In this document: positions 28,099 through 30,216 of the stretch, one piece after another
How positions within the stretch are numbered: position 1 is the first letter of the stretch
Layout: each line of letters starts with the position of its first letter
Assembly: GCF_001591385.1 (NCBI RefSeq)
Contig: NZ_BCUU01000016.1
Coordinates: forward strand, 1 to 64,000
Origin: Variovorax soli NBRC 106424
GTDB taxonomy: Bacteria > Pseudomonadota > Gammaproteobacteria > Burkholderiales > Burkholderiaceae_C
Reading direction: 5' to 3'
DNA length: 64,000 nt
Notes under the pieces: model-generated
Databases searched by the model: none
Seen by the model: only the letters and a program-made list of their open reading frames with translations
What the model was told of the DNA's origin: nothing
Program-made: the position numbers and the translations under genes

Positions 28099-30216
28099 TC
28101 AATGCCTGGGTGCCGATGCCGCCCCGAAAGGCTGCACTTGCTGCCACCAGTCCAGCACCTGATCGACCGATTGAGAAACCGTTTGATCGGAGTTGTCCAG
28201 GAGGCGAGCATCCTGCGCCGGCTTGAGAGGGGCGGTGCTGCGGGAGGTGTCCCGGGCATCACGCGCCTCCAGATCCTGGCGAAGACTGTCGAGTGTAACG
28301 GAAATTCCCTTTGAAATCAATTGCTTATACCGCCGCTCGGCCCGGTGGCTGGCGCTGGCGGTCAGGAAGACCTTGAGTTGCGCGTCTGGGAAGATGACGG
28401 TGCCCATGTCCCGGCCGTCCGCCACCAGCCCCGGCAGGCGGCGCAGGCGCTTTTGCAGGTCGACCAGGGCCTGGCGCACGGCGGGCAGGGCGGACACGCG
28501 CGAGGCATCCATGCCGGCGGCTTCGGTGCGGATGGCTTCGGTCACGTCCTCGTCGCCCAGCATCACCCGGCCGGTGGAAAAGTCCAGGGGCAGGCTGCGC
28601 GCGATCTCGGCGATGCGCGGCTCGTCGGCCGGCGTGGCCGCCAGGCCGGCACGGCTCATGGCCAGGCCGGTGACGCGGTACAGCGCACCCGAATCCAGGT
28701 AGTGGTAGCCCAGTTCGTTGGCCACCTCGAGCGCCAGGGTGCCCTTGCCCGAGGCCGTCGGGCCGTCGATGCAGATCACGGGCACGGTCACCGGCTCGCT
28801 CACCGAGAACAGGGTCTCGAAGTAGTCGGGGAAGGTCTTGGCCACGCACTTGGGGTCGAGGATGCGCACCGGCAGGCGGTCGGGGTTGAAGGCCGCCAGC
28901 GAGAAGCACATGGCCACGCGGTGGTCGTCGTAGGTGTGAATGCTCGCTGCCCGCCATTGGCCCGCGGCCAGCGGCTGGATGCGGATGAAGTCGGTGCCCG
29001 TCTCCACCTGCGCGCCGAGCTTGCGCAGCTCGTTGGCCATGGCGTCGATGCGGTCGGTTTCCTTCACGCGCCAGCTGGCGATGTTGCGCAGGACGCTGGG
29101 GCCGTCGGCGTAGAGCGCCATCACGGCCAGCGTCATCGCGGCGTCCGGAATGTGGTTGGCGTCCAGGTCGATGGCCTTCAGTGGCCAGGCGCCGCGCGAG
29201 ATGCGCAGCCAGTTGGGGCCGCTGTCGACCTGGGCGCCCATGCTCCGCGCGGCCTCGACGAAGCGGATGTCGCCCTGGATGGAGTCGGCCCCCACGCCCT
29301 CGATGCGGATGCCGTCCTGCCCGGCGACCGGCGCCGCAACCGGCGCGGCAATGGCACCCAGCGCGATGAAGTAGCTGGCCGAAGAGGCATCCGACTCGAT
29401 GTGGATGCTGCCCGGCGTGCGGTACTGGCTGCCGGCCGGGATCACGAAGCGGCTCCACCCGTCGCGCCGCACCTGGATGCCGAAGCGCGCCAGCAGGTTG
29501 AGCGTGATTTCGATGTAGGGCTTGGAGATCAGCTCCCCGATTACGTCGATGGTGATCGTGCGCCCCGCCGCCGGGCCGCCCCAAGGCGGGGCAGCCCCCT
29601 CGGGGGGCGGCGAACCACGCGAAGCGGGGAGCGTGGGGGCCACAGACGCCAGCGGCAGGGCCAGCAGCAGCGCGGTGAGGAACTGGCTGGACACGTCGCC
29701 CCGCACCCGGATCGGCTGCGACAGGTTCAGCTCGTCCAGCGGCACGGGGTGGATCTGCAGCGGCGGAAAACCGGGGTTGCCCAGGTAGTCGATGCGGCAG
29801 CCCAGGCCGATGAGCGCGTCGACCAGGTCGCCGATGGGCCGCTCGTGCATGCGCGGCACGCCGCTGAGCTTGAATTCGCCGCCCAGCAGGGCGAGGGCCG
29901 CGGTGAGCGGACGCATGGCGGTGCCCGCATTGCCGAGGAACAGCTCGGCCTGCCGGGCGCCTTCCTTCAGCTGCCCGCCCAGGCCGGTGATGCGGGTGAT
30001 GCCCGAACGCTGCTCGACGCCGCAGCCCAGCTGCGCGAGCGCGGCCAGCATCACGCGGGTGTCGTCCGAATCCAGGAGGTCGTGCACCTCGGTCGTGCCT
30101 TGCGCCAGGGCCGCCAGCAGCAGCACGCGGTTGGAGATGCTCTTGGAGCCGGGCAACTGCACGGTTCCGCCGGCGGCGCGCAGCGCGGGAAGGTCGAGGA
30201 AAGCGATGTCGTACAT
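28099..30216 (-). CDS. aroA-cmk: Bifunctional EPSP synthase / cytidylate kinase fusion
   Basis: One uninterrupted 705-residue frame. Residues 1 to about 470 form 3-phosphoshikimate 1-carboxyvinyltransferase (shikimate pathway): [10 protein letters not shown] at 21-30, [11 protein letters not shown] at about 94, SKPYIEITL at 231, and [11 protein letters not shown] at 430-440. Residues from about 479 form CMP/dCMP kinase: the P-loop [10 protein letters not shown] at 485-494, YLDSGALYR, and [13 protein letters not shown]. They are joined by a short linker with no stop or frameshift. Most bacteria have two adjacent genes (aroA, cmk); such fusions are known in Comamonadaceae. Residues 191-220 are an extra loop encoded by a palindromic repeat (see 29573-29641). 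It is preceded by tyrA and followed by rpsA. Confidence 0.94.
29573..29641. repeat. Palindromic GC-rich repeat inside the aroA coding frame
   Basis: A 69-base unit with several self-complementary blocks: CCGCC-CCAA-GGCGG, GCCCCC-TC-GGGGGC, and CCACGC...GCGTGG. From my knowledge of Comamonadaceae intergenic sequence, this closely resembles a common dispersed intergenic repeat. Here it lies wholly within the AroA-Cmk frame and encodes, on the minus strand, a Pro/Gly/Ala-rich loop (about residues 191-220) between LALPLA and ITIDVIGEL, where E. coli AroA has about five residues. Confidence 0.75.

Follow-up and report, generated by a model that had tools for sequence, protein, structure and literature searches.

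What is a GC-rich palindrome doing inside the reading frame of a biosynthetic enzyme, and has the protein come to make use of it? The window (the whole 64,000-nucleotide stretch of Variovorax soli DNA analysed here) carries on its minus strand, at 28099..30216, an aroA-cmk fusion gene of 705 aa, in which EPSP synthase (AroA) is joined to what we take to be cytidylate kinase (Cmk), and which remains open across an insert lying between the AroA motifs LALPLA and ITIDVIGEL. The identity of the AroA part is backed both by sequence and by predicted fold. Our reading, which we hold with considerable confidence, is that this loop arose when a mobile repeat of the Burkholderiales, ~79 nt long and structured, inserted in frame, and that the protein tolerates it rather than having recruited it.

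Covariance model R1 positions the whole element at 29562..29640 (minus strand; 79 nt, in frame, A193-R219) with a score of 77.6 bits; a match that is true by construction, because the AroA copy is itself one of the 95 sequences behind the model. The original prediction had described a 69-base palindromic unit at 29573-29641; the unit is there, but the model and the pairing of its arms together lengthen it by about 10 bases. Its estimate of 25-30 extra in-frame residues agrees with the 26 by which this surface loop exceeds that of all four congeners examined (G122, G215, G285 and G347; 59 residues vs 33 between the same two motifs), each of which has the short loop.

Within the 64-kb window R1 finds no second match at E<=1. 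Elsewhere in the 5.6-Mb genome of Variovorax soli there are, by contrast with a unit confined to AroA, some 25 further copies: a BLAST search with the unit returns 40 rows at E<=10, of which 26 fall below 0.05, and the covariance model gives 26 matches at E<=0.01, the AroA copy being included in both counts. The proposal that AroA contains, with its frame kept, a repeat dispersed in this family of bacteria is supported. Fragmentation of the assembly (239 contigs) might invite the suspicion of an assembly artefact or contamination, an explanation to which we attach next to no weight: the copy is interior to a 73-kb contig, the 705-aa frame is open throughout, and inserts at the same loop recur in other assemblies, including the 2-contig genome G298.

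Anatomy of the element

Working from the 5′ end of the element along the minus strand, we see a conserved leader, GCCCCCACGCTC (29629..29640), recognised from the alignment of copies, followed by hairpin 1 (29615..29628; CC-CGC-TTC-GCG-T-GG), for which covariation gives the family form xyCRC-NNN-GYG-T-y'x'. The pairs flanking its CRC/GYG core score 0.93 and 0.85, vs 0.46 and 0.47, in the 123 of 144 copies that could be parsed, the parsing itself having demanded a paired core. Next comes hairpin 2, GCCCCCCGAGGGGGC (29594..29608), which is almost invariant in the alignment. Hairpin 3 then closes the element: an inner arm, GCCCCGCC (29585..29592), defined by arm pairing and covariation and variable in sequence among copies; a conserved loop, TTGGGGCGGCCCGGC (29570..29584), apparent from alignment and covariation; and an outer arm, GGCGGGGC (29562..29569), which forms the right end of the element.

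Hairpin 3 is an 8-bp stem around TTGGGGCGGCCCGGC, the sequence of which is largely free whilst its pairing is maintained. Across 95 sequences 87.2% of cells are paired, two-sided differences occur in 223 cells as against 76 in shuffles and affect all 8 pairs, and the covariation score of 0.677 (0.203 when shuffled) drops to 0.200 or less once the partner is slid by 1-3 columns. In 152 copies spread over 13 genomes, Watson-Crick pairing at positions 2-8 reaches 0.68-0.91, vs 0.37-0.64 after arms are exchanged at random within each genome; from position 9 on, pairing is at background, and it is because of this fall past position 8 that we fix the right end of the element where we do. The 152-copy set omits those copies not parsed by our regular expression (L112, L116 and L120 in AroA, plus others).

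As parsed, 147 of these 152 copies measure 77-83 nt, one 75 and four 87-91; mean GC of element copies is 0.787, and in the alignment the 5′ end reads GCCC and the 3′ end is variable. Folded as a lone single strand the AroA copy makes only a modest gain over shuffles (z -1.9); the structure of the element rests on covariation across copies, and does so without the single-copy fold. No Rfam family matches at E<=1 over the 11 loci searched. An RNA structure under selection would be expected to show more G-U pairs than the 5.3% found among paired cells of the arms, which suggests to us a structure that matters as DNA rather than as RNA. In the AroA copies of G110 and G358 the arms depart from perfect complementarity at 3/8 and 1/8 places, respectively. 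A general decay of pairing in resident copies was considered and set aside, being visible in single AroA copies only; copies inside genes as a group are no worse paired than others (6.70 vs 6.19 of 8).

The AroA loop across relatives

Among the matches listed, those that run across the entire insert come from at least 10 genomes of the family (399 searched, 391 with any AroA match), matches having been ranked by E-value with insert-spanning rows first, such that strongly decayed inserts may escape. The ten (G000, G065, G298, G358, G375, G318, G070, G377, G110 and G132) represent 8 genera, and in all of them the insert occupies one loop, in one orientation and one frame, the copies in G318 and G132 being truncated or decayed. 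An insert at this loop is likewise present in Rhodoferax ND4_Bin_2 and in Ramlibacter paludis XY19, two of the 80 named loci, as judged by R1 for 12 of the loci and by loop length for the rest, with L095 and L100 assessed by eye. Nearly every AroA that we have seen has the short loop, as do all four sister-species proteins in the alignment that the original prediction had called for; a loop conserved throughout the family is not what is found.

Some neighbouring observations concern the same gene. In Acidovorax defluvii a second AroA loop, immediately preceding the IHTYDDHR motif, houses a decayed, oppositely oriented copy (L083, 2669-2747, minus strand). The AroA loop of L048 holds an insert that equals that of L113 in length (61 residues) but is of unrelated sequence and has no model match, possibly a very old copy of the element. 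G375 has two aroA copies, on contigs C189 and C24, both with the insert, which may reflect contamination or a mixture of strains.

Do these inserts descend from one event? A single ancient insertion, followed by many precise losses or by recombination between genera, with later conversion lending the copies a recent look, would account for the constancy of loop, orientation and frame; we judge it improbable, if not negligibly so. In an AroA tree of 127 rows with the loop excised, which takes in congeners picked to accompany the insert rows, 11 changes are needed to account for the 12 insert rows, no fewer than 8 being imposed by branches with good support, and the labels are scattered rather than clustered (177 of 500 label shuffles are equally low). 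On the midpoint-rooted tree a single origin demands one gain and at least 31 losses. The inserts are also more alike than their flanks in 32 of 34 pairs drawn from different coded or named genera, for instance 0.92 vs 0.74 for G298/G375 and 0.92 vs 0.75 for G377/Rhodoferax, with one pair equal and one reversed (G000/G377, 0.71 vs flanks of 0.74); a pattern that recent transfer would fit too. Congeneric pairs show little difference between insert and flanks (0.89 vs 0.91 for G298/G358; 0.86 vs 0.85 for G070/G377).

Subtype bears on the same question. The copy in the window is of a different subtype, closest to copies outside AroA (0.96 to one in G318 and 0.94 to that in RecJ of its own genome; 0.82 to the best AroA copy). 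Each of the eight other AroA inserts compared has its closest relative in another AroA copy (0.82-0.92), which would also fit a single insertion or local transfer, although the margin is in some cases thin (0.92 vs 0.90; 0.82 vs 0.81); six of the eight could be set against sampled copies from their own genome, giving 0.71-0.90. These nearest-copy comparisons, like those of insert and flank, cover 9 of the 12 AroA rows, with genomes partly sampled and the two named genomes represented by the AroA copy alone. Because the window's copy lies nearest to non-AroA copies and the eight others nearest to AroA copies, sequence likeness lets us argue with confidence for at least two separate insertions into AroA, and the events were probably many more than two.

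The original prediction went on to suggest that the repeat had been domesticated, for which we find no support. The fold returned by AlphaFold2 is that of an EPSP synthase (mean pLDDT 86.7; best PDB match 7tm5, TM 0.81/0.87), in which the insert joins helix 177-190 to strand 221-226 as a low-confidence loop, with block means of 54-62 and values <50 at 208-216; the loop is accordingly predicted to be disordered. Between G298 and G358 the insert has a pN/pS of 1.41 (10 vs 3 changes), compared with 0.10 and 0.20 in the flanks, as would befit a tolerated linker free of amino-acid constraint, albeit from one pair with few changes. Some useful property conferred on AroA, or on the AroA-Cmk fusion, would explain why the frame is kept in several lineages, and the equal length of the unrelated L048 and L113 inserts looks as if length had outlasted sequence. 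Set against the predicted disorder, the pN/pS ratio, the absence of the loop from the four congeners and its presence in so few of the 399 genomes, however, such recruitment seems to us very unlikely.

Copies inside other genes

Several genes, AroA included, have taken up the element repeatedly. Outside AroA, 46 of 142 copies from eleven genomes lie in frame within genes, a share that may be biased because the copies were gathered mostly by similarity to AroA inserts. The set from the window's own genome (25 examined of the 26 matches) was not chosen by AroA likeness, and here 8 of the 25 are in frame within genes, seven of the eight being AroA or supported by Pfam and the eighth being the copy on C45. 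Coding status was assigned from GC content by codon position, an open frame being demanded on either side, and only open in-frame copies were sought. The description of the repeat as 'intergenic-type' is incomplete: about a third of the copies sampled are in frame inside genes.

All 30 ORFs scanned, out of 50 candidates, contain Pfam domains, and in 29 of the 30 the insert falls within a domain or between domains of one protein; in L224 Pfam supports only the part to the right of the insert, the left side being assigned by likeness to L205/L206. Proteins with an in-frame element, named beyond their Pfam labels by reading the order of domains, include RecJ, HrpA, TrpE, FtsY, a Mur ligase, FdhD and a CobB/CbiA-type protein, together with GlnD, PurL, UvrA, RecQ, a class I tRNA synthetase, and UvrD and RecG-type helicases.

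All four congeners are empty at the sites occupied in RecJ, TrpE, FtsY and an RND transporter, HrpA lacks the element in 2/4, and an AMP-binding enzyme lacks it in both of the relatives aligned (75-76% flank identity, orthology unsure). The HrpA loop that carries the insert in L003 also holds other inserts without a model match in L297 (G122) and L287 (G347), that of L297 containing a GC-rich palindrome. Where both anchors were found, the net insertion relative to congeners amounts to 84 nt in TrpE, 84 in FtsY and 81 in RecJ, each a multiple of 3. These figures bear on the idea that splicing of the RNA, or skipping during translation, keeps the repeat out of the protein: the covarying hairpin would suit such a device, yet no constraint on frame or stops would then be needed, and the share of G-U pairs is below that expected of a selected RNA, such that we give the idea very little credence.

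In several cases different genera are hit at an identical or almost identical site: RecQ (G070, G132), GlnD (G070, G358), UvrA (G070, G298/G358) and PurL (G377, G298). The inserts exceed their flanks in likeness in GlnD (0.90 vs 0.65-0.73) and UvrA (0.89 vs 0.62-0.86), and slightly so in RecQ (0.94 vs 0.88-0.90). Those in PurL belong to different subtypes and are less alike than their flanks (0.77 vs 0.80-0.83), and therefore point to two separate insertions. The UvrA inserts of L205 and L206 (G298/G358) are identical over 79 nt between flanks of 0.91-0.94, which suggests either conversion or a constraint acting on the DNA. For the same pair of genomes the AroA insert has a pS of 0.10 vs 0.29-0.34 in the flanks; gene conversion between copies would be our guess. 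Because this low synonymous divergence and the identical UvrA inserts would both fit gene conversion or re-insertion, the count of AroA events may be blurred.

Beyond these genes, R1 detects the element in 106 of 141 genomes of the family (E<=1e-6), in 30 of 300 of the order, with several other families among them (E<=1e-5), and in 2 of 143 of the class sample, both from the window's own family (E<=1e-6); these surveys used stricter filters, with the loss of weak copies, and in that of the family no more than 33 copies were counted per genome. Some copies in G114 and G132 stand in tandem, repeating every ~81 nt. A search for carriage on plasmids gave one partial match, to an Azoarcus plasmid, using a short GC-rich query with the low-complexity filter on. 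In the Xenophilus E41 locus L032, the AroA loop of which is short, a copy at 534-612 sits just ahead of the start of a gene that we assume to be tyrA-like.

Movement of the element and its relation to known repeats

We envisage that the element would move as a folded single strand, served by an enzyme supplied in trans; the variable arms might alternatively be rewritten through hairpin-templated repair. Insertion would be widespread, with purifying selection sparing intergenic copies and those in frame within flexible loops, where the GC-rich, stop-poor sequence would be translated as a Pro/Gly/Ala/Ser linker. Recurrence at one AroA loop would then mark a permissive, possibly a preferred, site. 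A stronger version of this reading (an active element recognised by its shape rather than its sequence, the 8-bp terminal stem of which is rewritten as it spreads, and which re-enters the same surface loops of the housekeeping proteins AroA, RecQ, PurL, UvrA and GlnD across genera and so keeps supplying the proteomes of free-living bacteria with fresh Pro/Gly/Ala linkers) is one that we put forward tentatively, thinking it rather less probable than otherwise.

Several candidate details were discarded. Target-site duplication is apparent in one filled/empty case from genus g62 (GGAACGC, with one right-hand base changed), but is not general over the 152 copies, where the best of 280 offset pairs reaches z 3.1. 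Copying of the arms from the host upon insertion is rejected because many G114 copies have the same, common arms beside differing flanks. A RAYT acting on an adjacent element likewise found no support: within ~1.5 kb either side of 14 Y1_Tnp loci no convincing element was found (best 17.8 bits, E 0.12). Y1_Tnp genes do occur in 21 of 22 element-bearing genomes tried vs 10 of the 16 in which the model has no match (Fisher p 0.028, uncorrected for kinship), making a Y1 transposase a weak lead as mobiliser. A single Y1-type transposase gene is present at G000:C2:47042-47365 (L141), close upstream of a gene that is presumably glutamate-synthase-like, and most of the family genomes tried have at least one.

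How does the element compare with repeats already described? It resembles a MITE in being short, dispersed, devoid of coding capacity of its own and located near or in genes, but differs in that no terminal inverted repeats are apparent in the alignment and target duplication is not general. The GTAG/CGTC REPs of 20-40 bp lie inside ORFs, many of them in genes for DNA synthesis or repair, with targets that include UvrA, UvrD/REP helicase and tRNA synthetases, and two Xanthomonas species carry a REP at nearly matching positions in recB (Di Nocera et al. 2013, PMC3733652). The habit of lying within ORFs, DNA-repair genes and tRNA synthetases among them, is shared; the element is longer (~79 nt), and in place of a fixed GTAG or CGTC end tag it has GCCC at its 5′ end and a variable 3′ end. 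It differs also from REP-RAYT systems, in that none of the 14 Y1_Tnp loci offers a RAYT-type gene flanked by the element.

The closest match is the Beta-proteobacterial repeat element, or BRE, which by its description (Hot et al. 2011, PMC3110155) is 75-91 bp at full length, GC-rich, dispersed, sometimes in tandem, variable between relatives, found in Comamonadaceae and other Betaproteobacteria, and in some copies situated wholly within coding sequences. Judged by that description (size, GC, hosts and habit), our element is probably the BRE: its length (75-91 nt) and high GC fit, it is dispersed in the family and in other families of the order, with tandem copies in G114 and G132, and some of its copies too are entirely inside coding sequences. 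The covarying stem, the in-frame translation and the recurrent protein sites do not feature in the accessible part of the BRE account (PMC3110155).

In-frame palindromes in Rickettsia and intragenic REPs in a range of bacteria are already known. In the literature searched, which covers few subscription journals, we found no description of the AroA insertion; as far as that search reaches, what appears new is the copy-variable covarying stem, the extent to which housekeeping proteins have received in-frame copies, and the repeated occupation of particular loops. Translated selfish palindromes are best known from Rickettsia, organisms that are hard to manipulate. Among the kin of free-living Variovorax such insertions are common, and sister species offer both occupied and vacant sites, so that two questions become directly testable: whether the inserts shape proteins or are only tolerated, and how a repeat with no transposase assigned to it moves. 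Like the Rickettsia palindromic elements (RPEs), which are ~150 bp and lie in frame in unrelated proteins (as reviewed in PMC10969869), it is a palindromic repeat inserted in frame within unrelated proteins, and it is set apart from them by its length of ~79 nt, its copy-variable stem arms and its home in the Burkholderiales.
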